This document shows, piece by piece, positions 9,901-46,922 of a DNA stretch of 64,000 nt. Position 1 is the first letter of the stretch; every line of letters starts with the position of its first letter. A model generated the notes under the pieces. It worked only from the letters and a program-made list of their open reading frames with translations. It was not told the origin of the DNA and did not search any database. The stretch is from a virus. Position numbers and translations under genes: made by a program. The stretch is taken from the IMG/VR virus record IMGVR_UViG_3300045973_000529, positions 124,001 through 188,000 of that record; one strand, written 5' to 3'.

Positions 9901-10045
9901 CACTGCAAACGTTGGCTTCGGCACTGCACCGCCAGTGAACGCCAATCAAGCGTATGTGGGCTACATTGACGAAGTTCGTGTTGTTGGTTCCTGCTTGTAC
10001 GCTGCGAATTTCGTCCCGCCGACTATCCCATTCACGGCAGTCTGA
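3962..10045 (+). CDS. Giant tail protein with two C-terminal LamG-like domains
   Basis: A 2027-aa protein, translationally coupled to the preceding gene. The N-terminus (FILDTKPYHSKL) looks like a conserved docking segment. The middle is a long beta-rich region. From about residue 1575 there are two concanavalin A/LamG-type modules; both show the typical ending GYLDEVRIS or GYIDEVRVV, and the second also has VWHHVAVTR...LRLFVDG. LamG folds commonly bind glycans, so host-surface binding at the baseplate is the likely role (inference). A late promoter follows the stop. Confidence 0.88.
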   Translation: MTNKNSIYLGALTSFILDTKPYHSKLTEVQEVYQFADTVSVKIEERFTPNVLTKAAWMYSYFSGGIPQISANVGQPMSLHQLTNPLVRGYSRNSDPTNSRGAFKAFRDENLDLPMVPFAFDPKCLGDVGLSDAFVQRNGLIARDEPITEGLDVFLTHGAFVFQVKQATSTQPLVVGRFEDTYELTDAPFPKTVNLPFTNADSLVIVAGEGNATQLTLSSIRISGPGKVVVFGLSAAPNYAPQYTERKNENLLAVASASSLELALDTVNPLSAVNQLIGILNDITSWLVIHPNANATAAIIALQATLAIPAMPTSYEALFQALVLGGTPVLTGYTGWVGQDATAPYDDLYVDQAIAALSPGLAMGMYSDLAQRESGKLQYNDLTQGILTISNVIADPIRVDYEEFTLEAINPDVLAIRGSSTGTIGAVLVGDTFSSTALGFSTALISPVISATAVTVGQNYKIIAAGTTNFELMGAESSDPDTMFEATTVGTGTGTVQQLLNVGDEFVLTPLAKVTVHYQAPLEAWSVISINPRAYSRPFLTSTRYGYIRSLSNVKGFVTILDNTIPSTTLVLTANSASSFTMTSTADPAYIRAVTVNTLFNDGKVGFTVVGGTAYSFAAGDKFYIEIQNDAPVALDLDLFYGYDTEPYDADTMVYNSISSALTNYLQKIGFGYDSRFVGYDVAGLGMVMSEAAVDGRTWRLRALPNLSSPLNLQNAHSPNPVNQVSVIATNSPTNPAAAVLYDMANNTTSEGVQSGNDPDTIADLLLYYATSFALEYYDTGTETWVNVGTVPVGSTYTNATHGFTFKIQQGSKPFISGILNTSWYPATTGTFSTEVTTSGDIISWTVHNNLPFQTEGSGLTSRRAPRLIMYGEDFYESPAAKWTLTWISSTTYRLQGTYTSGLQNGQAVFTAPGITINTSSDGRSYKNSTMHLHYTVVTGSSGMTAGDSLSFETYVKEPTFLIHGSVSGWQPDAIIDQWYWNGKIGFKIPRAKIYRFDPVDGTPFGEGPWAVSNGTITCTRLRPDTPTSSYTVTCNTAGHWMLFRDGALVSDGTTSVSDLYLTLALPTAVVDVTYRFGVRGHDYAMAEGHDLAIIKTSAGRSPTANDFVLLERTTADHLQISIQPKDTAHGQVLDALAPVVTDLRFVDHNANSNVPLSATSPETAVLTGWFGITETKLDSTTSTAEFSDPLKTVVVRATATGETVGVVSSLGTTAAEPVIFRWDPAFHAKYLPLNAQATVVTLGSGMNEAVHVNMHDAAMFLLGGGGLSTEAFFTDVAQVAFVENGHQWAMNFSYGDDVGAAVADTGFTGFLPGYDNVPMDFELGVGDVNSEAAASGYYDAGVPLTEYFLQAQSLALLPSMTPQQQALFNDLTNVLFPYLDGGDVITTTMVEFLANVGASTTVPVFNNIVNWTGTTNGFGIPDVGMGMDIGETPVNTVGTAFDESLAILAIDQAYTFSVGTYGQGGYDAAFSDTIFVTSPTLPPSPVSGLPSVGTTYANYNAAMEIGLPGAHNIEVSFLSALLNTPNFYIWRPTDVSPMVVSVVERLTDRAFRFSVPVGGEMKLIAIPNLYYNPADANVKLLLHGEGTVGTGTYIDSSSYNRTMAATSSVVVLSTAQHYRGLSSLNVIGNVNFSTPALTTNEWLSMGTTANPLTIEMAVQVAAGNPGGVLAGNPALTGGNFGWWKFTLATDVGVGTPTPRIILAYNGGTAFVPLTGWTHGTGTWHMIAIAMRGTTNYEFGVWMDGVWKGSATLANPIVTPFGPIDSELNLTRSQGNDQFLGYLDEVRISNELFLPWGSNYTLWPSEFPNPPVPVPTALALWHAEDLLDSTANNVDITSGNATVSAVDKKFGTNSFFFNSTYLLAPSNAALNLGTGDFTVEAFVKHQTGTSGFGGIISANSGSSRVYLFVQGPTQALGFGGDTMPDFSTAANTLTANVWHHVAVTRQGTTLRLFVDGILGNTATCGVTALANFSAGGTLIGTANVGFGTAPPVNANQAYVGYIDEVRVVGSCLYAANFVPPTIPFTAV

Positions 10046-27599: not shown

Positions 27600-27683
27600 T
27601 CATCGAAGTCCGATGCGCTTACCGAGTTGTGACCAGATGAGGCGCAGCAGCGCATCATCCAGCCAAGCTTGTAGCTTCCTCAT
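27600..27683 (-). CDS. Possible 27-aa peptide coupled to the 843-aa gene
   Basis: MRKLQAWLDDALLRLIWSQ and a basic tail (LGKRIGLR). Its ATG overlaps the stop of the upstream gene (ATGA), the coupling style used throughout this genome. Very short, so weak on its own. Confidence 0.3.
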   Translation of the reverse strand: MRKLQAWLDDALLRLIWSQLGKRIGLR

Positions 27684-30211
27684 TCGCGCCAGCCCTTAGG
27701 ACGACCGCCCTGCTTGAGGTTCACAGTGCGCAACATGTTCGCGTACTTCAGCGCGTCCTTGTAGCCGGCTTCGTCATCAGTGAAGTACTTCGTGTGCAGC
27801 TCGCCATCGAACGGACCGTCGATGCCGACTCGCAGAGTCTTCATGCCTTCCTTCTGAATGTCGATACCGACTGTCAGCACCGTCTCTTCATGATTGCCAC
27901 CTGGGTAGGTGGCCATGTGAGCAGGACCTGCAGCTGGTTCGTCAAGCTTGAAGTAGTGCGCATCAGCACGGGTCATCGCTTCGAGCTCATTGAATGCTTC
28001 ATTCAGAGTCGATTCACCGAGACCGCCAGTGCCGCCATCAGGGAAGCCAGTGACGTACACGGTGGTGCCACGCACGGTGCAAGTGACATCATGCTTGTCG
28101 AGCTCGCGAGCAATCATCTCGGCAACTTCTGTTCGCGCAGTACGCAGATAGTTGTCAACGCATCCGAACTTGACGTTCATGTTCTTGCGCAACCAGCTAT
28201 TCACAGCGGTCATCGACATCATTGGGTGCATACGCTCTTCAACGACTGGCTCTTGCTGTGCTTGTGCAACAGGCTTCTTCACACCCAGTAGTCCAATCAA
28301 CGCTTCAATCTTCTGGTCCACCATTGAGCGCTGCTTCAGGCTGTTGCCAACATCTTCCAGCCCCTTCTTCAGCTGGGGCGCGCGATAGCTCAGATGCTCT
28401 TCAGGAACACCAAGAGCTCGAAGGAGCTCGATGGCTGCCTTGGCGTATGGGTTCGTCGACTTCACAGGGTTCAACTCGTCGATGCGCGACAGGAACCGGC
28501 TTCCAACCGTGTTCTCAACAACGTCCTTGCCAGGCTTCTTCTTTGGGTGCAGATCGGCTTCAGTATCGGCCAGATCTTCAGGAGCTTCAGAGCCATGCAC
28601 ACCGAGTCGATTGGCAAGCATCACAAGCTTCGCCTTCAGTTCACCATGTTGGTCAACAGCCAGCGCTGCCTTTGCGATGAACGGTGCCAGAACGCCGGGA
28701 CCCTTCACAGTGATGAGACCCTCTGGAAGACCAAGAGCAACCAGAACCGCTTCAAGCTTCTTCTGGGTCGCTGCACCGCGCTTTGGGTCATGCTTCTCTG
28801 CAAGCTCCGCCTTCGTGACCTTTGGCACCGTGAGCGTGTAGCCCAGCGCAGTACCGAAGGCGTTGTAGAAGTCGTTGAAGGCGTTCTTCGCGGATGCATT
28901 CTTGCGCAGCATGTCGCCAGCAGCACGAACGCGGTCAATCGCGTCAGGCTCATTCTTCAACAGTCGTCCAACGATACCAGACATCGCGAACAGAGCAATG
29001 ATCTTCTTCTCGATTGGGCGCTTCAGCTGCATGATCAGCTGCTTGTGTCCAGTTTCGAGAGGAATGTTCATCCCATCCTTCACCGAGTCGGTTTCGGTTG
29101 CCTTGGCTTCGTTCATTCGAGCCAAGAAGTTTGATCCAATGGTCATGTCAAAATCCTCAACGAGTTTCGGAGTGTACTTGTAGCTGGCAGTAGCACCAGC
29201 ACGGTTCTTTTCCCTTGTGAGCCGTGCTGCTTCGAGCTCTGCCGCTTCGGCACTCTCAAAGTACGCAACTTCACCTGCACGCTTCAGCGGTGCAGACCGC
29301 AAGCCATTCGTGTCGCCAGAGATGGTCGACATGATCACGTACTTGCCCTTGTTTCCTTGTGCTTGGGCCGCATCCAGGTGCGCTTGAACTTCTTCACGAG
29401 CACCTTCAGCGAGTTTTCCCAGCAACGTGAATCCTTCTTCGGTGACGCCAGAGCCAAGCGAATCAAGATCGTCAAGTGACGGTTCCTTGTCCTCTTTCTT
29501 CTTCTTGCGCATCACTGGGTTGCCGTCCTTGTCGAGCTTCTGGGTGCCATCATCGTTCAGCACTGGCTCAAGTTCATCTTCCTCATCAGTGTCTTCGTCG
29601 GTCGATGCTTCAAGCTCACCCTTGCGAGGCACGTCAATGATCTCCTCTTCACCATCAGCAACTGGTTCATCAGCAACCGCTTCGGTCTCATCAGCTGGCG
29701 GAACATCAATGATCTCTTCATCGCCCGCTGCTTCCTCTTCCGGAGGCAGCTCATCGGTGATCTCAGCATCGATCGACAGATCAGCGTCCGGATCCTCTTC
29801 ACCGGCGGTCGGGTCAGTTGGCCACACGACGTCGACGATGTCGAACTTCTGAGCCAGCTGGTTGATGGCTTCTTCCGTGTCGCCTTCAAGACCGAGGAGC
29901 TTCGACAGTTCTTGCTCGAACTGATCGGCGTCCTGCTGGTTCACGTACACCTTGATGATGTCGCCATCGTCCGTTTCAATCGCGAAGCCGACAGACTCGA
30001 CTTCGTCGTTCAGGTCCTGGGCACGCTCGAGGTAGTCGTTCACGTCAGAGCCAGTTACCTGACCGTCGGCGTTGATGGTGTTCCGCATCAGCGAGAAGCC
30101 GACATTCACCGGCTTGGAGGACATGTCCTGCGCACCAGCCGTTGAACCGTCGCTGGTCTTCAGATCGGCTTGGATGCTGCCCTTGGAGAGTTCTTTGAGG
30201 AGAGTGGTCAC
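27680..30211 (-). CDS. 843-aa late protein with duplicated GSxFLxRxxE motif
   Basis: GTG start inside the stop of the ligase-like gene (GTGA). There is an N-terminal alpha/beta domain (residues ~1-130), a strongly acidic disordered stretch (~133-225) with a repeated EEIIDVP, and a Lys/Glu hinge. Two related segments begin TIGSNFLARMNEA (~358) and TVGSRFLSRIDEL (~568), each followed by helical repeats. A C-terminal alpha/beta domain ends the protein. Not recognised. The late promoter upstream and size suggest a virion or prohead-internal protein. M-N-E/A and I-D-E/L resemble T4-type prohead protease sites (inference). Confidence 0.8.
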   Translation of the reverse strand: MTTLLKELSKGSIQADLKTSDGSTAGAQDMSSKPVNVGFSLMRNTINADGQVTGSDVNDYLERAQDLNDEVESVGFAIETDDGDIIKVYVNQQDADQFEQELSKLLGLEGDTEEAINQLAQKFDIVDVVWPTDPTAGEEDPDADLSIDAEITDELPPEEEAAGDEEIIDVPPADETEAVADEPVADGEEEIIDVPRKGELEASTDEDTDEEDELEPVLNDDGTQKLDKDGNPVMRKKKKEDKEPSLDDLDSLGSGVTEEGFTLLGKLAEGAREEVQAHLDAAQAQGNKGKYVIMSTISGDTNGLRSAPLKRAGEVAYFESAEAAELEAARLTREKNRAGATASYKYTPKLVEDFDMTIGSNFLARMNEAKATETDSVKDGMNIPLETGHKQLIMQLKRPIEKKIIALFAMSGIVGRLLKNEPDAIDRVRAAGDMLRKNASAKNAFNDFYNAFGTALGYTLTVPKVTKAELAEKHDPKRGAATQKKLEAVLVALGLPEGLITVKGPGVLAPFIAKAALAVDQHGELKAKLVMLANRLGVHGSEAPEDLADTEADLHPKKKPGKDVVENTVGSRFLSRIDELNPVKSTNPYAKAAIELLRALGVPEEHLSYRAPQLKKGLEDVGNSLKQRSMVDQKIEALIGLLGVKKPVAQAQQEPVVEERMHPMMSMTAVNSWLRKNMNVKFGCVDNYLRTARTEVAEMIARELDKHDVTCTVRGTTVYVTGFPDGGTGGLGESTLNEAFNELEAMTRADAHYFKLDEPAAGPAHMATYPGGNHEETVLTVGIDIQKEGMKTLRVGIDGPFDGELHTKYFTDDEAGYKDALKYANMLRTVNLKQGGRPKGWRE

Positions 30212-32553
30212 TTGACGTCCTTGTAGTTCCGTGGATCCTTGTGCTTGCGAGTCAAGGCAAGGAACTCCTTCGATTGATTTCGCCGACGCATCTCGGTCTT
30301 GCGGTTGTTGCCGAGTCCAGTCGGAACGGCTGAGATTGCACCGGCGTTTGTTGCTCCATTGGCTGGAACGCTGACTGGAACACCAGCTCCGGAATCAGCA
30401 CCTGCATCTCCGCCTTCACCCTCTTCGGTGAGGGCTGCGATGCGCTTCAACAGGCCTTCAGTTACCACGTCTTCATCCTTCAAGTCATGCGCAATCGGCT
30501 TCAGCCGAGGGTAGAGGCGCGAGTTCGGTACAAACTGCCGCACAAATGCAGACAGCTTCTTGATGAAGCTCTTCTGCTCAGCCACATCGAGTTCTGGAAA
30601 CCGGATCGACAGATCAAGCAGGCTATTTACACGCTCAGTCCGAACACCGGACAGATCGATGAGTCGCTGCAGCATTCGACGGTGATCAGACCACTGAATC
30701 TTGCGTTCGCCGTTCGCGCTGAAGTCCAGGTGAAAGTACTTCCACCACGGGGCTGGGATCTTCTTCGTGATGGCCAGCACTTCAAGACGTGTCTTTGGTG
30801 TCAGGTGATCTTCGAGCTCTGGCTTGGCAGCGCGCCACACGGCGTACCCCCAGTGATTCAGCGGGCTCATCTCATCGTCATGCTTCAAGAGCCGCCAGTT
30901 CTTCCGGTCACGAAGGAAGCGCAGGCCAATCATGTCCTGTGAGTGCACGACCAACATGCTCATGAACACGGTACCGAGGAACGCATTCACGAGGTGCCAG
31001 GTGTCTCGACGATTGAAGTCAGCGAGGCTGATCTCGGTGGCCGGAGCATGCTTCTTCTTTGGCTTGCCCTTCTCGAGCAACAGTCCTTCACCAAGCTTCT
31101 CAGCATGAACTGCTCGAGCTGCTGAACCGTACAGCACAGCCAGCAGACCAGCCAGTGACTTCGTGCCCTTGAGCTTGTCGAACAGCTCCTTCAGGTTCCG
31201 ATGCGCTTCAGCAAAGGTCAACAGCGTCTTCTTCACGGTCTCGTCTGACAGACCGATCTCCTTGCCGTTCTTCAGCTGGAGCTTGTAGTTCCCGTGATCG
31301 GTCTTGAAGGCCTCAAGCTTGTCGCCGAGCTCCTTGTACGTCTCGGAGGCGATGGCGAGGATCTTCTTCTTCACCGCTTCGTGATCCGTGAGCGATGACA
31401 TTGACTTCGCGAGGTTCTTGATTGTCTCTTCAGCGCTATCGCCCTTCACCGGCTCCATGGCCTTGCGGACATTGGATGCCTTGGCGAGCTCACGGTTTCC
31501 CAGAGCCTCAGCGAAGCGGATTCGCATCTGACCTAGCAGACCACCGCGGGCTTCCAACGGAGCGTCAGGATCAGTGGTGTTCAGGGCCGACTGGACCTCA
31601 CCACGTGGCGTCTGGTTGAACTTGTTGATGGCAGTGAAGACGTCACGATCGACGATCTTGACTTGATTGCCACTGGCATCGCGGAGCACGATGCCCTCGA
31701 TGCCAACATCCTCGTCCGGCTTGATGTCATCGGCAGCGAGTCCCGACTTGCGGTGCAGCTTCGACAGCAGCGCCGCCTTGATTGGGAGCTGGTAGTCGTT
31801 CAGGAGCGTCGTGAGCAGCGCTTCCTTGGCTGGCTTGAACCCGCTCTTCAGCTCCTTCGGGACTGAGCTGACCATCGTGGTCGCAAGCTTCAGGTTCGAG
31901 AAGTTGCTGAAGCCTGACGGCTTCTTGAGGAAGGCATCGAGCTTGTCGAGCATCGGCTCGATGCCTGCATCAGCCTTGAGCTTCTTGGTGTCGAGCTTAT
32001 GGGGTGACACGAACTGGAACGTCACCGAGATGTTCGTGGTCGACAGCTCCTTGCCATCAGCCGTGTCGACGACGTCGACCTTGGCTTCAGCCTGCTGGTT
32101 CACAAGGCTCGAGGCGAGGTGATCGGCAATCTCGTTTGGCGTGTCATTCACACCGCGTAGGAACGCGACGAAGGACATTCCGTGTGCACCATACGTGACA
32201 CTATTAGGTTGGCGACCGAACAACACCTCGGCCTCAACCGTGTCGCCAGGGCGCAGTACGCGTTGAATCTCCTGGCTCTTAGCTGCAATGGCAGCGTGCG
32301 CAGCACGGAACTGGTTGAACGCTGAGATGAGCGGCCAGTCCTCCGGAGTGTACCGTCGTTCAGCACCGTTCCGCTTCCCTTCGCGGGATGTGAACAGCTT
32401 TCCCTCTTCATCTGACCCGACCCAGAGCTGAGCACCGTCAAGCTTCTCCTGAGCAGCCATCGTGGCCATATTCCGGAGCGTGTCGACGAACTCGTCGATT
32501 GGAAGGTCCTCGATGTGAGTGATGCCTTCGGTGAGGATTCGTTGGATGTGCAT
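30208..32553 (-). CDS. 781-aa late protein with ligase-like nucleotidyltransferase domain
   Basis: The N-terminus MHIQRILTE/G resembles a T4 capsid-targeting signal ((L/I)xE cut). Covalent nucleotidyltransferase motifs follow: EKLDG (K37, KxDG motif I), LFTSREGK, EVLFGR, then near residue 290 EGIVLRD (motif IV) and QVKIVD (motif V). Residues ~300-781 are a long helical region of unknown fold with a Gly/Ala-rich linker near the end. DNA or RNA ligases are far shorter and usually early. This gene follows a late motif only four bases upstream, so it may be a packaged or head-associated enzyme. Confidence 0.75.
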   Translation of the reverse strand: MHIQRILTEGITHIEDLPIDEFVDTLRNMATMAAQEKLDGAQLWVGSDEEGKLFTSREGKRNGAERRYTPEDWPLISAFNQFRAAHAAIAAKSQEIQRVLRPGDTVEAEVLFGRQPNSVTYGAHGMSFVAFLRGVNDTPNEIADHLASSLVNQQAEAKVDVVDTADGKELSTTNISVTFQFVSPHKLDTKKLKADAGIEPMLDKLDAFLKKPSGFSNFSNLKLATTMVSSVPKELKSGFKPAKEALLTTLLNDYQLPIKAALLSKLHRKSGLAADDIKPDEDVGIEGIVLRDASGNQVKIVDRDVFTAINKFNQTPRGEVQSALNTTDPDAPLEARGGLLGQMRIRFAEALGNRELAKASNVRKAMEPVKGDSAEETIKNLAKSMSSLTDHEAVKKKILAIASETYKELGDKLEAFKTDHGNYKLQLKNGKEIGLSDETVKKTLLTFAEAHRNLKELFDKLKGTKSLAGLLAVLYGSAARAVHAEKLGEGLLLEKGKPKKKHAPATEISLADFNRRDTWHLVNAFLGTVFMSMLVVHSQDMIGLRFLRDRKNWRLLKHDDEMSPLNHWGYAVWRAAKPELEDHLTPKTRLEVLAITKKIPAPWWKYFHLDFSANGERKIQWSDHRRMLQRLIDLSGVRTERVNSLLDLSIRFPELDVAEQKSFIKKLSAFVRQFVPNSRLYPRLKPIAHDLKDEDVVTEGLLKRIAALTEEGEGGDAGADSGAGVPVSVPANGATNAGAISAVPTGLGNNRKTEMRRRNQSKEFLALTRKHKDPRNYKDVK

Positions 32554-34574: not shown

Positions 34575-35921
34575 TCATCGTCCCAAAAGCGCCTGGAGGC
34601 CATCTCCAGCCTGCCCTGGCTTAGTGTCGCCCAATGCCAGTACCTTGCCCTTCGGCCGGAGATTCGGCTTCAGCGCCTTCTTGGACATGTCGCTGATGCG
34701 GAGACTATCAGAGTCCCACGCCATCTCGATCTTCTTGTTCACGGCGTTCGAGTTCCGTGCCTTGAGGAATTCAAAGCGGTACATGCCAGCGATGTCCATC
34801 GCCTCGTCCTTCACCAGTGCAATCACCAGATCGGATGTGTTGATCTTTGAGATGCCGCCCTGGATGTGGTCTTGTCCAATCGCCTTCTCTTCACGGGTCG
34901 CGACGATGGCACCACGCCCGAGCTGGCTGGCGCTGATCATCAGGCAGTCGAAGTCGAACCCGATTGCACGAACTTCTTCGGTGACGAACTTGTCCTTCGT
35001 GAACATGTTGCTGCCATCGTGCTTCTGTACCGAAGCCATCAGATCGATGTAGTCAACAACGACGAAGTCAGGCTTGAAGCCATGCACGGCCTCAAGCTCA
35101 CGCAGGTACGACGCGATGTGATCAGCTGTCGTTGAACCTTCGCGCATGCGCTTGATGAAGAATCGACCCTTCGAGGACTCCTTGAAGAGCTCGACCTCTT
35201 GGCCGACCTTGAGTTTGTTCGCGAAGATGTTCTTGCCTGAGATTCGACTGATCATCGAGTCGAGCCGCTTGGCCACAACACGGTCACGCATCTCCAACGA
35301 GATGTACACACCATGCATACCGCGGCTCAGCAGGTTGTACGCCAAGTTCAGCATCGCGACGGACTTACCACCGCCCGAGTTCGCTGTGAACAGACATAGC
35401 TCTTGCCGACCGAGACCGCCAATGAGCTCATCAACATCGTCCCAGCCCGTCGAGATCAGCACTTCGAGAACTTCAGACTCTTCGAGCCGCCCAGTCGGAT
35501 CAGCGAAGTAATCGATGCCAAGATCGCTGTGCAACTGCACCTGAGTGGCAAGCTTGATCTGCTCGACCATCTTGCCGAAGTCGCCCTTCTCGATTAGGGC
35601 TGGCGCTTTCAGCACCGCTTCAGTCACGGCACGGATCTGACAGAACCCAGCGATCTGCTCAGCGACGTACTTCACATCCTGCTGTGGCAGCTGAACCGCT
35701 TCGATCGTGGTGAGCTTTGTGTTCACCTGGAACACTGGCATTGAAGGCACACCACGGTACTTGCCGTAGAACTCCTTCAGGAACGAGACACCGTCCTGCA
35801 GCGACGAGTCAAAGAAGCTCGGCTTCAAGAGGTGCTGGACACGGGCAAACAGCGCCGGGTTCCCAAGCATCGTGCTCAGGTACAGGCGCTGTGCCCCGTC
35901 GTCGATCATGACATCACTCAT
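34575..35921 (-). CDS. Replicative DNA helicase, gp41/DnaB type
   Basis: A 448-aa protein. An N-terminal helical domain precedes a RecA-fold ATPase with Walker A ANSGGGKS (residues ~180-187), YISLEM, Walker B DFVVVDYIDLM, and LMISASQLGRGA (motif H3/H4). Length matches the T4 gp41 class. It would unwind the fork 5'-3' as a hexamer and partner the primase encoded immediately upstream, with which it shares an ATGA overlap. Confidence 0.93.
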   Translation of the reverse strand: MSDVMIDDGAQRLYLSTMLGNPALFARVQHLLKPSFFDSSLQDGVSFLKEFYGKYRGVPSMPVFQVNTKLTTIEAVQLPQQDVKYVAEQIAGFCQIRAVTEAVLKAPALIEKGDFGKMVEQIKLATQVQLHSDLGIDYFADPTGRLEESEVLEVLISTGWDDVDELIGGLGRQELCLFTANSGGGKSVAMLNLAYNLLSRGMHGVYISLEMRDRVVAKRLDSMISRISGKNIFANKLKVGQEVELFKESSKGRFFIKRMREGSTTADHIASYLRELEAVHGFKPDFVVVDYIDLMASVQKHDGSNMFTKDKFVTEEVRAIGFDFDCLMISASQLGRGAIVATREEKAIGQDHIQGGISKINTSDLVIALVKDEAMDIAGMYRFEFLKARNSNAVNKKIEMAWDSDSLRISDMSKKALKPNLRPKGKVLALGDTKPGQAGDGLQALLGR

Positions 35922-36943
35922 TTTCTTCCCATCTTCGCAAGCGACAGCTGCATCTGCAGCTCAAGTTGAGATTGTAACGCGACGCCACTAGCCGTCTTAA
36001 GGGTACGTGGTTGGGTTGCATTCTTCATCAGGGTCCAGAGTGTGAACAGCTTCCCGTGCTTCTGGATCGACTTGTTCGCGTCGCAGCCGTCAGGAGGAAA
36101 GGTGACCTCCCAACCATTTTCGAGCGCAACCTGACCGAGGTGTCCACCGTTATCGTCACGATCAATCACAGCCACCTTGCGTCGACGCGACTTGTTCAGC
36201 ACCTCAAGCTTCGAGGCATTGAGCTGTGAACCGAGCAGCGCAATGCCGTCGATGGAAGCGGCATCGAAGATCCCTTCAACGATGAACAGTGGCAGATCGA
36301 AGTCACCTCTGAGCTTGTCGTATCCCCACATCACCGCATCCTTGTTCGTCCCTGGCGACAAGTACCGTGGCTTGGCTTCACCAACTGCACGTGCCTGCCA
36401 GTAGATGACCTTGCCATCGCGCATGCACGGGAGGATGACGCGGTTCAGGAACTTGGGATCAAGGCTGAAGTGTGCGTTCAGCACCACTGGATCGAGGCCA
36501 CGCTGCACGATGTACTCGGCCAGCGGGAGCTGAAGCTCAGGCTTGACGTCAGACCCGATTGGATACGACTTCGGTGGCAGCGGAATCTCAGGCGTGAAGA
36601 GATTCACCACTGGTTTCATTGCCTCGAGCGTGATGACCTTCGGCTCGGTCGACTTCACGAAGAAGGCTGATCCCACCAACTCGCTGATCTCGGTGCCAGA
36701 GATACCGAACGCCTCAAGGGTCTTCCGGACCCAAGGTGGCATCGAGGTCGAGCACTCTTCGTAGTCCCAGTTCTGGTGACAGTTGAAGCAGTGGTATGAG
36801 ACCTTGTCGCTCTGGATCTTGAACCCAGCGCGTTCCACGTGATCGTTGCAGACAAGGCACCGACAGCCGCGGAAGCCGTTGCTGGCTTCGCGACCGAGCG
36901 GCACGTGCTGCTCGATCAGGTCTCGAAGGAATTTCTGTTTCAT
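35918..36943 (-). CDS. DNA primase, gp61/DnaG type
   Basis: A 341-aa protein. An N-terminal zinc ribbon has CLVC (29-32) and CFNC (52-55). A Toprim domain follows with LFIVEGIFDAASI (catalytic Glu) and VAVIDRDDNGG (DxD). It is the gp61 layout and of gp61 size. Coupled to the helicase downstream. Synthesises RNA primers for lagging-strand replication. Confidence 0.92.
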   Translation of the reverse strand: MKQKFLRDLIEQHVPLGREASNGFRGCRCLVCNDHVERAGFKIQSDKVSYHCFNCHQNWDYEECSTSMPPWVRKTLEAFGISGTEISELVGSAFFVKSTEPKVITLEAMKPVVNLFTPEIPLPPKSYPIGSDVKPELQLPLAEYIVQRGLDPVVLNAHFSLDPKFLNRVILPCMRDGKVIYWQARAVGEAKPRYLSPGTNKDAVMWGYDKLRGDFDLPLFIVEGIFDAASIDGIALLGSQLNASKLEVLNKSRRRKVAVIDRDDNGGHLGQVALENGWEVTFPPDGCDANKSIQKHGKLFTLWTLMKNATQPRTLKTASGVALQSQLELQMQLSLAKMGRK

Positions 36944-38246: not shown

Positions 38247-39497
38247 TCACGCAGTCAATCTCAACCCCAGTTTCTGACTGATCTCGGGTAGCTTGTCGAG
38301 GTACTCTTGCGGAACACCATCGATGCCGTCGTGAACCATGATGCCGTGCTGACCAATCTCTTTCCAGATCGCGTACCTCGCTTCGCGCTCCCAGGCGAAG
38401 TACTCAGCAAAGACCTTCTTCAGGTTCTTGCGAGTTGGGTTCATGTTCAGCTTCGAGTTGCAAAGCCGCTTCCGAGCGCTATCGAACTGACGGGCAATGT
38501 ACTGCAGCCGATCGCCAATGTTCATCAGCTCCGTGATGGTCGCCTCTGGAGCCGCCTCCTGAATGATCTTCGCAGTCTGCGAGAACTCAGTACCGTTCGT
38601 CAGCAAGCTGCCCGAGACCCTTGAACCATTTGCGATGCTCATGAGCACGGACTTGATCACGCCTCGCCAAACCGTGGTGTACGGTCGCTGAAGCACCTGC
38701 TCACAGAGCTCTTTGCGGAATGCTTCCTTGTCATGCAGCAGGCGAATCAGATCGGGGAAGAGGAGCTGCATCTGCTGTTCTTTGCCCTTGAACTCCTCAC
38801 TAAGGTATTCCAAGAGGAACGACACGTACGCCGAGTCGATGTCGATTCCAGGGCCGAACAGCTCCTTGCGAAGCCATGACGGCCAGGTCTCGATGCCACT
38901 GATGGGCCAGACACTCGTGTCACGCTTCTGGAGCTTGCCACTGGGGGCGAAGTGGAAGTTCAGCTCTGGGTGCTGCTTCAACAACCACGTCAGCTGTGGC
39001 ACCAGCTCTGGTCGGCCTGCCTGAAGGGTCCGCTCAATGAGGCTCTGACGATCGAGCCCGGGCTGGAGGTACACCTTACTGATCACCGAATCCTTCGGCA
39101 GTGCTGGCACCTCGTACCGCAGCTCTTCTTGCGTCTGATCAACGACCTTCAGGTCTGACGGCGCCAGTCGTCGCGGCACGAGCGTGCTGAGCTCACGGTT
39201 GTCTTCATCGAGCCGGTACCCGAGCTGCTTGACCTCGAAGAAGTAGTCCAGTGCAGGGCGGTAGTCACGCACCCATTCACTGAGCTTCGTGAGCTGGACT
39301 TGCACTGTGCAGAATCCAACTGGCTTGCCGCAGCGAATGGTGCCGTGATAGAGATTGGCCAGCCACAGCACCAGATCCTGGCGTGCTTCGGCCTTACCTC
39401 GATGAACCCGCTGTAGGTCAGGCCAGAACCGCTGCCAGTGCAGCGGGTGGCTCGGAGCGATGGGGTTTCGAGTCGAGAGGCGGTACGGACGTGTCAT
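38247..39497 (-). CDS. Small family-A-polymerase-like protein
   Basis: A 416-aa protein. Three palm/finger motifs appear in order: GIDIDSAYVSFL (motif A, D219/D221), R278-xxx-K282-SVLMSIA-N290-G291-S (motif B; R-x3-K-x7-Y/N-G as in DNA Pol I and T7 RNA polymerase), and MVHDGIDG (motif C, H389-D390). A-to-B spacing is ~61 residues and B-to-C ~108, close to Pol I. The wording KSVLMSIANGS is closer to T7 RNAP. The usual motif-B Tyr is Asn. No exonuclease domain. It may be a minimal polymerase, primase or RNA polymerase; I know no described family. It lies among replication genes. Confidence 0.6.
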   Translation of the reverse strand: MTRPYRLSTRNPIAPSHPLHWQRFWPDLQRVHRGKAEARQDLVLWLANLYHGTIRCGKPVGFCTVQVQLTKLSEWVRDYRPALDYFFEVKQLGYRLDEDNRELSTLVPRRLAPSDLKVVDQTQEELRYEVPALPKDSVISKVYLQPGLDRQSLIERTLQAGRPELVPQLTWLLKQHPELNFHFAPSGKLQKRDTSVWPISGIETWPSWLRKELFGPGIDIDSAYVSFLLEYLSEEFKGKEQQMQLLFPDLIRLLHDKEAFRKELCEQVLQRPYTTVWRGVIKSVLMSIANGSRVSGSLLTNGTEFSQTAKIIQEAAPEATITELMNIGDRLQYIARQFDSARKRLCNSKLNMNPTRKNLKKVFAEYFAWEREARYAIWKEIGQHGIMVHDGIDGVPQEYLDKLPEISQKLGLRLTA

Positions 39498-40659: not shown

Positions 40660-40712
40660 GGTGTATGTCTCCTCAAACGAAAAAGGCCGGTTGATCCGGC
40701 CTTCGTCTGGTG
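40660..40712 (-). terminator. 53-bp repeated terminator cassette, copy B
   Basis: Minus strand: CACCAGACG, then AAGGCCGG-ATCAA-CCGGCCTTTTT, then CGTTTGAGGAGACATACACC. It differs from copy A at only three positions. It closes the methyltransferase operon. Confidence 0.85.
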
Positions 40713-40720
40713 TCGCCGGG

Positions 40721-40942
40721 CTATACCAGAGACTCGATGTACGCTTGTATTTGATCAAGCATCTCCTGTTTGAGAACCGCTGAGCATTTGAACGCGCCAT
40801 CGCTCGATGTGAACTCCCAAAACCTTCGCGGGGTAGAGTAATCCCAAGTGCAGTTGACACAGGTCCCAACGGCTTTACCGTTCACGTGCACTAAACGGCT
40901 GATCCAGGGAGCGCCAAAGACAGGGGCTTGCACCGTCATCAT
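40721..40942 (-). CDS. Small protein coupled to methyltransferase subunit 2
   Basis: A 73-aa protein. MMTVQAPVFGAPWISRLVHV, with CVNC near residue 28 and a single later Cys, then a helical C-terminus. Its ATG overlaps the upstream stop (ATGA). Last gene of the restriction-modification-like operon, directly before the terminator cassette. Confidence 0.68.
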   Translation of the reverse strand: MMTVQAPVFGAPWISRLVHVNGKAVGTCVNCTWDYSTPRRFWEFTSSDGAFKCSAVLKQEMLDQIQAYIESLV

Positions 40943-41895
40943 ACACGACGCCAGAGGTTCGGTTCTCGCAGTCCGTGACCAGAGCCGTACTGCTTCAGCG
41001 AAGGGCCAGGCTCTCCGAGAATCGTCTTGCCCTTTGCCTTCAGCGAAGCGTTCACGACATCTGCGAGCGCATCGTGGTCACATTCCCAGAATGAACCATC
41101 GAGCGGATCCTTGCAGCGGATCGTCATGCCCTTGCCGTACCATTCGGCCTTGATCTGCCAGCCGCCGCCCGGGCCAGTCGGTTCGCTTTCAGGCTTGGGC
41201 TCCTTAGCAGCCTTCACCGGCTTGGCGGGTTTCGGCTGCTTGAAGAGCTTTGAGGTGTCGATTTCGGGTTGCACTGGGGGCACTGGAATCTCCTGTTGAG
41301 CGAGTTGTGGTTGACGGCCAAGCATCTTCTCGACCATGTACTTCTCGCCGATATCTGGTGTGTCAGTTTCCGGCCAGGCGCCAAGATCCCGCTCGTCCAG
41401 AACTTCGAGCACTTCGATGAATTCATCATCCGTTCGGCCGAAACTCATGTCGTACTCGAGCGCGGTCGTGCAAACGTGGTTCCGGTGAAAGAGCACCTGG
41501 TCTTGGTCGAGCCCAAGCTGCTCGTGGTACGGGTTGTGGTCGTTCAGATCCTGCGCGATTTGATGAATCTGCCCGATGTCGAAGTGCTCGCCATTCGGCC
41601 AGAATTTCGGATTCGGTTGACCATCAATGAGATAGCCGAGTCGATGTTGCAGCACCCAGTGGTTGTCATCAATCAGCTCAACGCTGAAGAGCATGTTCTC
41701 GAGAATGTGCTTCTCATCGTGTCCGGCCTGAAGGAGGCGCACCTTGATCTCGACCAGAAAGTTTCCATCGCCCGCGGAGGGTTCCAGCCAGCGCTTATTC
41801 GGGTCAAACCAGACGGAATTCGGGAGAGCATCAAGCATCTCCCGAATCAGCGAGCGAGGAGTGAAGACCTCGCCAGTTTGTTTAACTCTTTTCAC
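40939..41895 (-). CDS. Adenine methyltransferase-like protein with motifs X and I only
   Basis: A 318-aa protein. TGEVFTPRSLIREMLDALP (motif X region) and WLEPSAGDGNFLVEI (motif I, SAM binding, residues ~37-50) are typical of Eco57I/TaqI-class N6-adenine methylases. Where the catalytic (D/N)PPY should follow (HRNHVCTTALEYDMSFG, ~168-184) there is none. A Pro/Lys-rich linker leads to a separate C-terminal domain. The previous gene has NPPY but a degraded motif I, and the two overlap by 14 bases. A two-subunit methylase is the simplest reading. Confidence 0.75.
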   Translation of the reverse strand: MKRVKQTGEVFTPRSLIREMLDALPNSVWFDPNKRWLEPSAGDGNFLVEIKVRLLQAGHDEKHILENMLFSVELIDDNHWVLQHRLGYLIDGQPNPKFWPNGEHFDIGQIHQIAQDLNDHNPYHEQLGLDQDQVLFHRNHVCTTALEYDMSFGRTDDEFIEVLEVLDERDLGAWPETDTPDIGEKYMVEKMLGRQPQLAQQEIPVPPVQPEIDTSKLFKQPKPAKPVKAAKEPKPESEPTGPGGGWQIKAEWYGKGMTIRCKDPLDGSFWECDHDALADVVNASLKAKGKTILGEPGPSLKQYGSGHGLREPNLWRRV

Positions 41896-42925
41896 GGAAG
41901 ATTTTCTGAATTTGTTCGCGAATCAACCACCCAGATTCCAAGCAAGCGTCAATGTATTTTCGGCCTTCTTCACCGTTGATCCAACCTTCAGCAAGTTTTG
42001 CTTCGCTCAGCGTGCTGAACACGAAGCTGTCGATCCCTTGTCTGAACCAAGGATTCGCACCGGACTCATCCAGCCATGCAACTTTCATATAGGAAATCAT
42101 GTTGCCATGCAGATTGACGTGAAGTACAGGCTTACCACTGTATTTTGCTAGTTTATCACGGGCGGCGCTGTGTGTGAATCGATGAAATTTCGGCTGGCCG
42201 TCAGCGCCCAAACAGCTGTAGACCGGAATGGAGTACTTTTCATCTCTCACCTTGCTCGTCTGGCCAAAATCGATACCAACAACTCGCAAAGCAGGAAATG
42301 ATACATTGCACTCTACATCCCGGCGCAAAAACGTCCCCTGAACTCCGCGATCAATCACAAACGCGGTGATTTTTTCAGCCACCAAGAAGTCCTTGCTTGC
42401 ATCACGCTCCCACAGCATGGTGGTTGCGTCCATCCAAGCGGTGTATTTGATAGCGCGGTCTGCATCCCTTGCAAAGATATTTACTGGGACCACATACGCG
42501 TGAACAGAGGCATCCGTAGAGTGAATTCCCGTGAGATGCAGGAACTTGTAGTGAATATCGGTCTTGCCGCTGTACGGTGGGTTGCCAACCACCACGTCGA
42601 ACTTGAGGCCCATGAGTTGTTGTTCCAATTCTTTGATTGGCTCATTGTAACCAACTTGTAAAACCCTACCCACTCGCATTTGGTTCGCGAGTAGTTCTTG
42701 CTCAGGTGTGTGAGCCACAAAAGTGATGCGATCAAAACTTGCGCCTCGGCTCTTCAGCACTGGCAGGAACCCCAGATCAGAAAGTACAAGGATTGAGCCA
42801 TCGAGTTTGATTCTTGAGAGCATCTGCTCGGCGAGCTCGAACGGGGTCCAAGCGGGTTTCACCGTGTCAGCTGCATAGGCAACATTGATACGTTCAGCCA
42901 GGATCTGGAGGATTGCGGTGTTCAT
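41882..42925 (-). CDS. Adenine methyltransferase-like protein with NPPY
   Basis: A 347-aa protein. FDVVVGNPPYSGKTD (residues ~109-123) is a textbook N6-adenine methylase motif IV. At the motif I position there is SILVLSDLGFLPVL, lacking the acidic/glycine SAM loop. The following FDRITFVAHTPEQ resembles motif II. The C-terminal ~220 residues would be a target-recognition part. Start MNTAILQ is seven bases after TAGAAT, mirroring the nuclease-helicase gene. DNA modification as part of the cassette is inferred. Confidence 0.8.
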   Translation of the reverse strand: MNTAILQILAERINVAYAADTVKPAWTPFELAEQMLSRIKLDGSILVLSDLGFLPVLKSRGASFDRITFVAHTPEQELLANQMRVGRVLQVGYNEPIKELEQQLMGLKFDVVVGNPPYSGKTDIHYKFLHLTGIHSTDASVHAYVVPVNIFARDADRAIKYTAWMDATTMLWERDASKDFLVAEKITAFVIDRGVQGTFLRRDVECNVSFPALRVVGIDFGQTSKVRDEKYSIPVYSCLGADGQPKFHRFTHSAARDKLAKYSGKPVLHVNLHGNMISYMKVAWLDESGANPWFRQGIDSFVFSTLSEAKLAEGWINGEEGRKYIDACLESGWLIREQIQKIFREKS

Positions 42926-42932
42926 GCTCGGC

Positions 42933-42938
42933 ATTCTA
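42933..42938 (-). promoter_or_regulatory. -10 box of the methyltransferase operon
   Basis: TAGAAT on the minus strand in TAGAATGCC-GAGC-ATGAAC. Compare the nuclease-helicase gene: TATAATGCC-ATCC-ATGAAC. Same spacing, so co-regulation is likely. Confidence 0.55.
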
Positions 42939-42966
42939 TCCTGAACTGTGAGAGATGAGTAAACCG

Positions 42967-43428
42967 TTACAACGTCAGTGCAGGCAGAATCGGATGAGCC
43001 TTACGATAGCGCATGAGCAGCAGCATCTCGTCGGTATCGTGAATGCCGACCGCATGAGTCTTGAGCAGATCCGAGATTTTGGCTGAATCAAAACCATTTC
43101 GCGTCAGCACTTCGAGCACCTGCGAGATTGACATGTATCCCGCCCGCAATGCTGCGAGCTTGTTACGCAGCGTCAGCTCGACTTGGCCCAGGTCCTTCAG
43201 ATCCTGGCCCGTCACACACCAGCGAAACTGCATCCCGATTGAATACACGAGCGAGCGCGGCGGCAGCACGCAGGTTTCTCGCATGATTCGCTCGACCTTC
43301 TCAGCGTCTGACACTGGGAGCTGTGCTTCTGGCATGGTTTGGCCGAGCGGACCAAGTACCATTTTCACAGCCTGGTACATGATCTCGCGATTGCGAGTGC
43401 CTTTCCACTTGATGCGCTCTTTGCTCAC
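42967..43428 (-). CDS. Small helical protein between nuclease-helicase and methylase
   Basis: A 153-aa protein. GTG start overlaps the helicase stop (GTGA). Helical with QVELTLRNKLAALRAGYMSISQVLEVL and FDSAKISDLLKTH, which could be a small helix-turn-helix. No family recognised. Its position suggests a specificity, control or inhibitor role in the cassette. Confidence 0.7.
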   Translation of the reverse strand: MSKERIKWKGTRNREIMYQAVKMVLGPLGQTMPEAQLPVSDAEKVERIMRETCVLPPRSLVYSIGMQFRWCVTGQDLKDLGQVELTLRNKLAALRAGYMSISQVLEVLTRNGFDSAKISDLLKTHAVGIHDTDEMLLLMRYRKAHPILPALTL

Positions 43429-45515
43429 AGCAGCTCCAGAAGGTCAGCGGTATCTTGCTTGCGGTACTTGGCGAGCAGCTCTTCTTCGAGCTCTGTTCTA
43501 ACCAGCTCGACTTGCACGTTCTTCACAGCGCTCTGGATAGAGTCGGCGCCGATCACGTTCTTCAGTGCGTTCAGCGGAACCACCCAGCCGTCGTCATCAC
43601 CATCGACGCCGTGTAGACCTTCATCCACGTCAGCGAAGGCGTAGTCGTTCTCGGTCAGGCCAGCGTATTGCAGCTTCAGCACGAGATCGACCAGGAAGTC
43701 CTTGAAGGTCTCGAGCGTTTCATCATGCACGATCACATACACGGTGGCCGAGTACTTCTTCCAGCCTTCGGGGCTGTCGATCGAGATCAGCCCGGCCTTC
43801 AGGTTCTTAGTGTCTTCGGGATTGGCACGAACGGCGCGGCCGATCGCTTGCTGGGTGCCGATAACATCGGTGTTGCGCGAGAAGATCACGCAGTTGAAGG
43901 GGTTGATGTCAATGCCTTCCTTCACAACGCTGAACTGGCAGAGCACCGAGTCAGAAGAGAGCTTCACTTGCTCGTAGATCTTCTTGCGATCGCGTGAAGG
44001 CACACCAGCGTGAACAGTTTCCAGCAGTCCGCTGAACTCCGCACGAACGGCCGGGTTGGTGGTGATTTCCTTGCAGATCGGCACGGCCTTGCTAAAGGTG
44101 ACCGCGTTGCAGAAGCCGGTCTTCATCATGTCGGTGTGCGCTGCGATGGTACCAGCCGCTTCCACGACGGCTGTGCGCAGGTCAAAGTTTTCACGCTTTG
44201 CGGCCTTCTTCATTGCCGTGTCAAGCCCCTTGAGCTTTGCACCGTCGTGAAGGACCAGGGTCTTGATAATGATCTTCGGGACCAAGATGCCGGTCTTGCG
44301 CAGATCGGAGTACTTGATCTCGCAAAGGAGCGGGCCGTACAGCGTCTCGTCAGTGCCAGACACCAGGCGACCGCGCTTGATGCTGGCCGAAAAGAAGAGA
44401 TTGCGAGCGCTCGGAATCGAGAGCATGTGATCGCGCCGATCGGTCGTCTGCTGCACAGTGTGGTGGAACTCGTCCCAGCAGACCAAATCAGCCTCGATGT
44501 CCTTGGTATCCAGCCCGTCGAAGAGCTTGCCTTCAGATGCGTACGTCACAAACACGAGAGTCTTCTGGGTCATCCACGACACCAGATCGTTCGGCGATGT
44601 GGTCTGCCGGATGTCGGCCCAGTTGTCAGCACTTTCGTCGCCAGTCCTGAAGTGCACGACTGACACGCCATGCACGTGGAACGCGCCGTATTTCTGGAAG
44701 TACTCATGATGTTGACGCAGCAGATCGATGGTGGGAGCGACCACGACTTGCAGCGTGAAGCCGCTTGCGAACCCGTCCATCACGTTCTGATAGATCACAC
44801 GGGTCTTGCCGCCACCAGTGGCGCAGATCACGCGACCGTTGCCACCGTTCTCCATGATGGGTTGGGTTGCAGCGCGCATCACTTGCTGATGTTCCCACAT
44901 TTCAGGAGGATCGACGAAATCGGTGGGTGCCACAGTCGAGAGGTTCACCGTGAGGTTCAGCTCGCGCCAGAAACTCGGGTCGCGATCAATGAAGCTCTCT
45001 TGTTCTTCCTTGCCGATGACTCGCATCCGAGCTGCCAGTGAAGCTGCCATCGGCGCGAAGATGCCATGTTCACCAGTGTTCGAGAGATTCGTGAACCAGA
45101 TGCGACGATTCTTCGAGATATCGAGCTCGTCGCATTGGTCAATGAAGGTGTAAAACGAATCGCGCTTGAATTTGTCGGTCGGGTTCGAGCGATACTTCAC
45201 CTGCAGCAGACATGGTTCGCCGTTGAAGTTTTCATGGGCAAAGTCGTAGCCGGCCTGATACTTGTTCCGGCTCGTGTCGCTGATGTGCTTGACACCAAGA
45301 TGAGGATTCGCGTCGGTGCCGTACCGCGCGAAGAAGAATTCGGTGAACACTTCGTAGGCAGCTCCCACGAAGTCGTTGTACTCCTCGGATCCGGGCTTGC
45401 CGAGCTTCTTGCCGAATTCAGCGATCCGCTTGATCATCATGTCGAAAGACGTGATGTCGGAGAAGACGCCAGACTCGCCGATCGTCTTCGTTTGGAGGTG
45501 GTTTAGCTTGTTCAT
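43425..45515 (-). CDS. Nuclease-helicase fusion, restriction-enzyme type
   Basis: A 696-aa protein. The N-terminal ~190 residues form a PD-(D/E)XK nuclease-like domain: AYEVFTEFFF (Glu), GYDFAHENF (Asp91) and LLQVKYRS (QxK, 105-107). An SF2 helicase follows: WEHQQ, ATGGGKT (232-238), VVAPTIDLLRQ, WDEFHH (~347-352), FFSASIKRG, VKEGIDI and QQAIGRAVR. This is the arrangement of type I/III-like or Mrr-linked restriction motors; UvsW lacks the nuclease. Start MNKLNHLQ chosen because TATAAT lies seven bases upstream. With the methylase-like genes it forms a modification-dependent or restriction cassette. Confidence 0.82.
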   Translation of the reverse strand: MNKLNHLQTKTIGESGVFSDITSFDMMIKRIAEFGKKLGKPGSEEYNDFVGAAYEVFTEFFFARYGTDANPHLGVKHISDTSRNKYQAGYDFAHENFNGEPCLLQVKYRSNPTDKFKRDSFYTFIDQCDELDISKNRRIWFTNLSNTGEHGIFAPMAASLAARMRVIGKEEQESFIDRDPSFWRELNLTVNLSTVAPTDFVDPPEMWEHQQVMRAATQPIMENGGNGRVICATGGGKTRVIYQNVMDGFASGFTLQVVVAPTIDLLRQHHEYFQKYGAFHVHGVSVVHFRTGDESADNWADIRQTTSPNDLVSWMTQKTLVFVTYASEGKLFDGLDTKDIEADLVCWDEFHHTVQQTTDRRDHMLSIPSARNLFFSASIKRGRLVSGTDETLYGPLLCEIKYSDLRKTGILVPKIIIKTLVLHDGAKLKGLDTAMKKAAKRENFDLRTAVVEAAGTIAAHTDMMKTGFCNAVTFSKAVPICKEITTNPAVRAEFSGLLETVHAGVPSRDRKKIYEQVKLSSDSVLCQFSVVKEGIDINPFNCVIFSRNTDVIGTQQAIGRAVRANPEDTKNLKAGLISIDSPEGWKKYSATVYVIVHDETLETFKDFLVDLVLKLQYAGLTENDYAFADVDEGLHGVDGDDDGWVVPLNALKNVIGADSIQSAVKNVQVELVRTELEEELLAKYRKQDTADLLELL

Positions 45516-45522
45516 GGATGGC

Positions 45523-45565
45523 ATTATACTGCCATCCCGGAAGAAGTACACCACTAAATTGTAAC
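45523..45565 (-). promoter_or_regulatory. Three-box promoter P3 of the nuclease-helicase gene
   Basis: GTTACA-N8-GTGTAC-N17-TATAAT on the minus strand. The -10 box is seven bases from the ATG, so the mRNA would start at or beside it. Confidence 0.75.
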
Positions 45566-45582
45566 GGTCAGTGACCGTTACA
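45560..45582. promoter_or_regulatory. 23-bp perfect palindrome
   Basis: TGTAACGGTCA-n-TGACCGTTACA, with 11-bp arms. It lies just upstream of the P3 -35 box and includes its GTTACA element. It could be an operator for the restriction-like gene, or the terminator of the late gene ending at 45585, though no T run follows. Confidence 0.7.
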
Positions 45583-45992: not shown

Positions 45993-45998
45993 TATTTA
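45993..45998 (-). promoter_or_regulatory. Late promoter TAAATA (minus strand)
   Basis: ggcgTAAATAcgc on the minus strand, 27 bases before the 45965 start. It overlaps the stop codon of the ART-like gene. Confidence 0.72.
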
Positions 45999-46922
45999 CG
46001 CCTTCTTGGTGGCGAACAGTTTGATATGCTTGGGCAGGATCGTGCCGCGATATGCAACGGATCCGAGCTCCTTGACACCCAGCTTCACTTGATTGTGCAT
46101 GCGCTTCGGATCAACTTCACGGCGTGGATGGAACGCATCGTCTGGCGAGTACTTGCCAGGATCCGGCACCGTGATCTCGAGTACCACATACTTGTCGTCG
46201 CCGTCCTTCACCGCTTGGCGCTTGCCGTAGAACTCAGCCGTCTTCGGGTTCATACCGAGGTAGACGTTGTGTTCCGAGTATCCTTTGATCAGGTCATTGT
46301 AGACTTCGCCAGTGTGACCTGGCTGCAGCCCCTTCTTCTGGATGCTCTCCCAACGCGACCATGACGTGCCGTGGTACAGGACCTGTGGCTTGTTCTTCAT
46401 GATCTTCGTGACGTTGTCCTCCATTGCGAGGACCTCGCCAACCGTCTTGCCGTTCATGCCTGGTTGGATACCCTTGATCACGAAGTCGTCAGTGACTTTG
46501 TACCGCTTGAGGTTCTTCAACGCGTCCTTGAAGGTCTTGATGTCGTTGATGGTCCGCATCCGCGACTTACCGCCAGCATCTTCTTTGGCGATCGTGATCG
46601 TCTTGTCAGCGAACACGATCTTGCCACCAAGATGGTTCCAAAGATCAGTCTCGCCAGGTCTTTCGAGCTTCACGTCTTGGACCTTCTTCTTGCGAGCGAC
46701 CACCGCCTTCCATTCGCCAGAAGCAACGATGCCAGAGTAGACCTCGTTCACGGTGCTTGCAAGGATCAACTGTCCACCGTGGTACAGGAAGTACATGCCT
46801 TCAGCTGGATCGATCCAGCCCGACAACTTCACAGCACCCCAGTACGGGAACTCCTTTTCGACGTTCTCGTGTCGCCAGTCGCGAACTGACTTGGCTTCCA
46901 GCAGAAGTTCAGCTACTTTCAT
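45996..46922 (-). CDS. ADP-ribosyltransferase-like late protein with capsid-targeting N-terminus
   Basis: A 308-aa protein. The N-terminus MKVAELLLE/A fits a T4 capsid-targeting signal ((L/I)xE cut). The C-terminal half looks like an ART/KptA-type fold: LYHGTSWSRWESIQKKGLQP (residues ~182-201), VYLGMNPKTAEFYG (220-233), YVVLEITVP (245-253) and YRGTILPKHIKLF. T4 Alt is a packaged ADP-ribosyltransferase with such a signal, so this may be an Alt analogue that acts on entry. The exact catalytic triad is not certain. Coupled to the Nudix gene (ATGA). Confidence 0.72.
   Translation of the reverse strand: MKVAELLLEAKSVRDWRHENVEKEFPYWGAVKLSGWIDPAEGMYFLYHGGQLILASTVNEVYSGIVASGEWKAVVARKKKVQDVKLERPGETDLWNHLGGKIVFADKTITIAKEDAGGKSRMRTINDIKTFKDALKNLKRYKVTDDFVIKGIQPGMNGKTVGEVLAMEDNVTKIMKNKPQVLYHGTSWSRWESIQKKGLQPGHTGEVYNDLIKGYSEHNVYLGMNPKTAEFYGKRQAVKDGDDKYVVLEITVPDPGKYSPDDAFHPRREVDPKRMHNQVKLGVKELGSVAYRGTILPKHIKLFATKKA

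Follow-up and report, generated by a model that had tools for sequence, protein, structure and literature searches.

Phages are usually viewed as targets of restriction-modification, and a cassette of restriction-like genes in a T4-type phage raises the question of what such genes might do for the virus that carries them. The cassette lies on the minus strand of a 64,000-nucleotide stretch (the window) of IMG/VR record IMGVR_UViG_3300045973_000529, which is 190,499 bases long in full. An earlier note on this DNA had suggested a 'modification-plus-attack system', and this is still the best-supported reading, given a nuclease-motor like that of Type ISP enzymes, a four-part module conserved in other phages, exchange of the presumed recognition part and intact catalytic residues; the note's two methylases are most likely a single one, and the make-up is not unique. 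Judged from sequence and fold comparison, the cassette is probably a phage-encoded, ATP-dependent restriction-modification module of a Type ISP-like kind, spread over several proteins and containing one split methylase. Its features, with protein lengths in amino acids (aa), are as follows.

43425..45515, minus strand: nuclease-motor, an N-terminal PD-(D/E)XK domain and a superfamily 2 (SF2) ATPase of Type ISP kind; frame open back to a GTG at 45554
42967..43428, minus strand: 153-aa protein, joined to the nuclease-motor via GTGA; codon use phage-like; no counterpart in any other module
41882..42934, minus strand: NPPY subunit, 350 aa; methylase fold, motif IV intact, motif I decayed, variable C-terminal tail
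40939..41895, minus strand: motif-I subunit, 318 aa; methylase motifs X and I-III (EPSAGDGNF), motif IV absent, additional C-terminal region
40721..40942, minus strand: 73-aa open reading frame (ORF), a doubtful gene; ATGA coupling
40682..40704, minus strand: terminator-like hairpin, 9 pairs then TTCG; closes the cassette

The ORFs and couplings are as the earlier note had read them: GTGA, ATGA and the 14-base overlap between the 318-aa and NPPY genes are all exact, and the motifs ATGGGKT, DEFHH and QAIGRAVR and the terminator (stem 40704-40682) are all present. Counted from the GTG, the first ORF spans 43425-45554 and encodes 709 aa; homologues indicate that its true start is probably the ATG at 45515. 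The D91 and QVK 105-107 of the note fit numbering from this ATG, and the D and QxK are invariant in eight homologues. Codon use is phage-like in the 709-, 153- and 318-aa genes and in the flanking genes, and atypical in the 350-aa gene, which has a G+C content of 0.498 versus about 0.56. The 73-aa ORF exists and is coupled as claimed, but it may not be a gene, because its codon use is not phage-like (score -0.22, not above the other two frames and non-coding-like) and no relatives turned up. In Pfam, the helicase domains of the 709-aa protein scored above the gathering score, and the two methylase proteins matched Eco57I and N6_Mtase below it.

Comparisons of the nuclease-motor place it closest to Type ISP enzymes. 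Residues E68, E72, D104, Q118 and K120 (GTG numbering) are invariant across eight nuclease sequences, and PHROGs divides the 709-aa protein into phrog_7683, a small family of unknown function (residues 18-204), and the helicase family phrog_16. For the AlphaFold model (mean predicted local distance difference test score 70.8, the nuclease region partly below 50), the best fold match among 350,542 PDB chains was LlaBIII (4xqk; expectation value (E) 3.7e-16, 674 columns), with XPB-type motors behind it and UvsW outside the top 50; the root-mean-square deviation from LlaBIII was large and the TM-score low, so the domain arrangement is unmatched. A helicase profile built from module helicases plus ordinary cyanophage helicases matched the PDB sequences of LlaGI (8e-21), LlaBIII (2e-20), XPBII (5e-16) and UvsW (2oca; 3e-9). 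Since this profile takes in ordinary cyanophage helicases, the Type ISP likeness holds for the family; a profile of the three nuclease-motors (NucHel) alone reached only XPBII in the PDB. The earlier note had allowed for an ordinary UvsW-type helicase, an identity that we reject on the E values, the motor being far nearer to LlaGI and LlaBIII.

The two methylase-like subunits of the earlier note are indeed methylase-like, one with NPPY and the other with motif I, but the split of the motifs, the adjacency of the genes and a natural fusion suggest that the 318-aa and 350-aa proteins are most likely two halves of one N6-adenine methylase. Motif X (VFTP), motif I (EPSAGDGNF) and motif III (ALEYDMSF) are found in the 318-aa protein, which lacks NPPY and matches phrog_4376 (E 8e-28); the 350-aa protein has NPPY and a decayed motif-I region (VLSDLGFLPVL). 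In profile searches of the PDB, the motif-I set matched the motif X/I part of CamA, M.BseCI and HsdM, and the NPPY set matched M.TaqI around NPPY (E 4e-7), which was also a fold match of the 350-aa model (E 1.3e-8). Across relatives, GxG[NS][FIL] is kept in 68/68 distinct motif-I proteins, which stop at a median of 10 residues past motif III. Of 63 testable loci, 62 have an NPPY gene no more than 200 bp from the motif-I gene, and in 61 the two genes overlap; 49 of 76 NPPY proteins begin at motif IV, and GxG is missing from motif I of the partners that retain the N-half. The split is clean in P-SSM2, where 036 begins KFTLAIGNPPY and 037 ends right after motif III, and the two halves are fused in Aeromonas phage Aeh1, whose Aeh1p090 is a single chain with the NPPY half first and the motif-I half second. 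The variable C-terminal tail of the NPPY subunit is presumed to be the target-recognition part. We know of no description, in the open-access literature, of a methylase that is divided between motifs III and IV and whose cofactor half has a gene of its own.

The same module recurs in other T4-type phages. Scans of IMG/VR with motif-I and helicase alignments, together with phage records, yielded nine loci at which a nuclease, an SF2 motor and an NPPY gene occur together: the window, L015, L095 (two copies), L096/97, ACG-2014f, S-CAM7, Bellamy and L182. An IMG/VR scan with the single nuclease-motor protein as query confirmed no relative, in contrast to the alignment-based scans. A motif-I gene is present in eight of the nine sets, the first L095 copy being without its own. 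Gene order varies: nuclease-motor (fused), NPPY, motif-I; nuclease, helicase, NPPY, motif-I; motif-I, nuclease, NPPY, helicase; nuclease, NPPY, helicase, motif-I; and helicase, NPPY, nuclease, motif-I. Walker A, DExH, the nuclease E/D/QxK and NPP[YF] are kept at all nine, and the only weak motif is that of the L095 motif-I protein, with CGNAAF as its motif I. In ACG-2014f the relative of the phrog_7683 part is a separate 200-aa protein clustered with the helicase, NPPY methylase and motif-I protein. The earlier note knew of no described phage system with this exact make-up; the same set is in fact present, unrecognised, in the sequenced cyanophages ACG-2014f, S-CAM7 and Bellamy. Per-species cyanophage record counts are large and not independent, and our claims are built on distinct proteins or loci. 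At L095 (2824-6717 and 6989-11235) two non-identical nuclease-motor-NPPY sets stand side by side, one fused and one unfused, with the motif-I gene by the second.

Parts of the module are exchanged within species. Two S-CAM7 isolates, 0910SB42 and 0910CC49, share 98.8% identity over the motif-I gene and what follows it; upstream of that gene, one carries a PD-(D/E)XK nuclease, NPPY protein and motor, and in the other a GIY-YIG-like helicase protein of 704 aa (48% identity to its MA01 counterpart) accompanies a different NPPY protein. The nuclease, NPPY and helicase genes of ACG-2014f come and go as a unit: one set of 14 records has all three, and other records lack all three. Comparison of C90 with C7 revealed that a near-repeat, GACACyTGAATAACTGGCACArGGGGG, flanks this trio and is single-copy in C7, which retains the motif-I gene and, about 100 kb off, encodes gp186, a further NPPY half that begins at motif IV; gp186 is a possible alternative partner of the motif-I protein. 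Between ACG-2014f and S-CAM7, identity is 50% for the nuclease, 56% for the motor and 72% for the motif-I protein, and the NPPY tails cannot be aligned; the tails of S-CAM7 and L182 are 50% identical over 175 residues. The presumed recognition tails thus vary independently of the motors. In the Ah1 variant a GIY-YIG domain is joined to NPPY with no motor, and its gp104 matches Pfam T5orf172 above the cut-off; the GIY-YIG assignment is secure for this protein only, the other alternative sets resting on alignment of short motifs. Most cyanophages carry just the two methylase halves. Near-identical terminator-like repeats also lie on both sides of the removable ACG-2014f trio (L002:6350-6390 and 9892-9930), and are possible recombination sites.

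The split pair is not confined to phages. A scan of GTDB contigs found eight motif-I relatives, all in contigs named Actinobacteria, and a pattern-limited scan of the same contigs found no bacterial relatives of the fused nuclease-motor. In the loci read in detail the operon order is motif-I protein, helicase protein of about 1,100 aa and protein of about 350 aa beginning at motif IV. These operons (L185, L187, L189 and others) thus share with the cassette a motif-I half, 38-44% identical to the phage one over the matched part, a large helicase protein and an NPPY protein starting at motif IV; they differ in that the helicase N-terminus is, by eye, GIY-YIG-like and not PD-(D/E)XK. PADLOC matched the helicase proteins to 'Type IIG restriction enzyme-methyltransferase' and the NPPY proteins to 'Type II methyltransferase', which independently suggests a restriction context. 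The actinobacterial operons of L185-L192, in which a GIY-YIG-like helicase protein accompanies a motif-I half and an NPPY half, themselves resemble an undescribed split restriction system.

In the mechanism that we propose, the motif-I protein, as the S-adenosylmethionine-binding half, and the NPPY protein, as the catalytic half with a variable recognition tail, would assemble into one N6-adenine methylase that, during infection, would mark phage DNA at a specific site. Where this site is unmarked, in host or rival-phage DNA, it would load the SF2 motor, which would translocate, and the fused PD-(D/E)XK nuclease would then cut. The target may be host DNA, as a source of nucleotides, or competitors, and the swapping of recognition tails and sets favours rival phages. 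It is quite possible, although we propose it tentatively, that the motif-I protein is a constant cofactor half serving interchangeable sets of NPPY/specificity protein and nuclease-motor (PD-(D/E)XK or GIY-YIG), a swappable platform against rival phages. Encoded on its own, the cofactor half seems capable of working with more than one catalytic partner.

Among known systems, the Type ISP enzymes LlaGI and LlaBIII, the best fold and motor-sequence matches, share with the cassette an Mrr-like PD-(D/E)XK nuclease N-terminal to an SF2 motor, followed by an N6-adenine methylase with a tail. Type ISP enzymes translocate by means of ATP and cleave when they collide at unmethylated sites. A single chain contains their nuclease, motor, coupler, methylase and recognition domains (PMC4666363), whereas the cassette and related loci use separate ORFs. 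We recognised no coupler in the cassette proteins, and their methylase is of another lineage, with motif I in the 318-aa and motif IV in the 350-aa protein. The cassette would work like a Type ISP system but stands outside Type ISP proper, being neither single-chain nor of the same methylase lineage. As in Type I systems (HsdR/HsdM/HsdS), the motor-nuclease is separate from the methylase subunits, and the methylase halves are similar to HsdM and to M.TaqI-like enzymes; unlike in Type I, the methylase is split and the motor is nearer to LlaGI/LlaBIII. The Type I specificity subunit, HsdS, has two target-recognition domains; no match to a specificity-subunit family was found among the cassette proteins in Pfam, PHROGs or PADLOC, and PADLOC gave only generic methylase and helicase matches, with no signature proteins of BREX, DISARM or other systems. 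Type III systems have a Res nuclease C-terminal to the motor and a complete Mod methylase, whereas here the nuclease is N-terminal and the methylase split; the Pfam name 'ResIII' denotes a generic motor domain. In the passages on which we draw, Iyer et al. describe jumbo-phage methylases that are circularly permuted and M.EcoKI-like, as well as fusions of Mom with a nuclease, and they predict that phages carry systems which combine modification with a nuclease and are directed at host or rival DNA (PMC7824862); a split motif-I/NPPY pair, a Type ISP-like motor and allele swaps are not described in those passages. Apparently lytic T4-type phages with a putative ATP-dependent system of their own, whose parts are exchanged within species, make a role in phage-phage or phage-host conflict testable. 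Putative functions also follow for cyanophage genes recorded as 'hypothetical protein', such as T4-GC 33-34 of P-SSM2.

Several findings weigh against a restriction-modification module. The nuclease domain is modelled at low to moderate confidence; its profile alone matched no PDB sequence, and Pfam Mrr_cat_2 matched a single homologue, below threshold. LlaGI was not among the PDB sequence matches of either cassette methylase protein. The model of the 350-aa protein, mostly a confident prediction, contains a whole methylase fold within residues 1-200, including its own decayed N-half, beside which a second N-half would have to fit. Relatives of CMP/dCMP 5-hydroxymethylase and T4 DNA beta-glucosyltransferase are encoded in the record outside the window (C1, about 35890-36733 and 42453-43577; L014:71-913 and L007:2453-3577), so the phage DNA probably contains glucosylated hydroxymethylcytosine, beside which a second mark may be redundant; the cassette would add to this base modification and not substitute for it. 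Finally, in many cyanophages the two methylase halves stand beside a helicase with no nuclease. This arrangement also favours self-modification alone, in which the halves shield phage DNA from host restriction and the nuclease-motor acts in repair, recombination or fork processing, like T4 UvsW. No separate UvsW was found in the record, in keeping with such a role; its second phrog_16 match, considered as UvsW and rejected, best fits another helicase family, phrog_2488. The distance of the motor from UvsW nevertheless makes this explanation unlikely, as do the dispensability of the trio within one species, the presence in Bellamy of the module helicase alongside a second helicase of cyanophage type and the joint exchange of nuclease type and NPPY gene in other phages.

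Host takeover overlaps with the restriction-modification reading, as it specifies one particular target: the module would mainly degrade the unmethylated host chromosome for nucleotides, with methylation sparing phage DNA, as has been proposed for chlorella virus restriction systems. Everything that supports restriction-modification applies here too, and the phage DNA is probably modified differently from that of the host. Yet hydroxymethylcytosine would already tell self from host, and swaps of tails and whole sets within species are more in line with a shifting range of opponents than with a host target that stays the same; we consider the host as main target possible but doubtful. An acquired restriction system losing function would account for the atypical composition of the 350-aa gene, the lack in its tail of the C-terminal pattern seen in its relatives and the non-coding-like 73-aa ORF. 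All frames are open and coupled, however, homologues that share about 20-60% identity still have the catalytic residues, and codon use is adapted in the 709-, 153- and 318-aa genes, which together render decay very improbable.

Elsewhere in the cassette, relatives of the 153-aa protein were found in none of PHROGs, PADLOC and IMG/VR, and weak matches to eukaryotic PDB proteins (E 0.1 or worse) were judged to be chance. A TATAATGCC-like motif shared upstream of the 709-aa and 350-aa genes was rejected as a general phage promoter, being too rare. Terminator-like sites in the region overall showed no excess over shuffled sequence, and the window had no nucleotide-level relatives among phages. The T4-type genes of the record include DNA polymerase, DnaB-like helicase, primase, gp47/SbcD-like protein and endonuclease VII. 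Also on the minus strand, 45996-46922 encodes a 308-aa protein with an RNA 2'-phosphotransferase (Tpt1/KptA)/PARP-like domain barely over the Pfam cut-off, possibly an ADP-ribosyltransferase, and large ORFs of 843, 781 and 416 aa at 27680-32553 and 38247-39497 have no or marginal PHROG matches. In P-SSM2, the 462-aa PSSM2_038 (L001:6490-7878) lies between the split methylase and the helicase; it is ParB-like by eye, with a sub-threshold match to the DpnI_C winged helix, and may read methylation. In cyanophage P-RSM6 (L003, 155-9326), genes annotated as 2OG-Fe(II) oxygenase and endonuclease V alternate repeatedly around a helicase.

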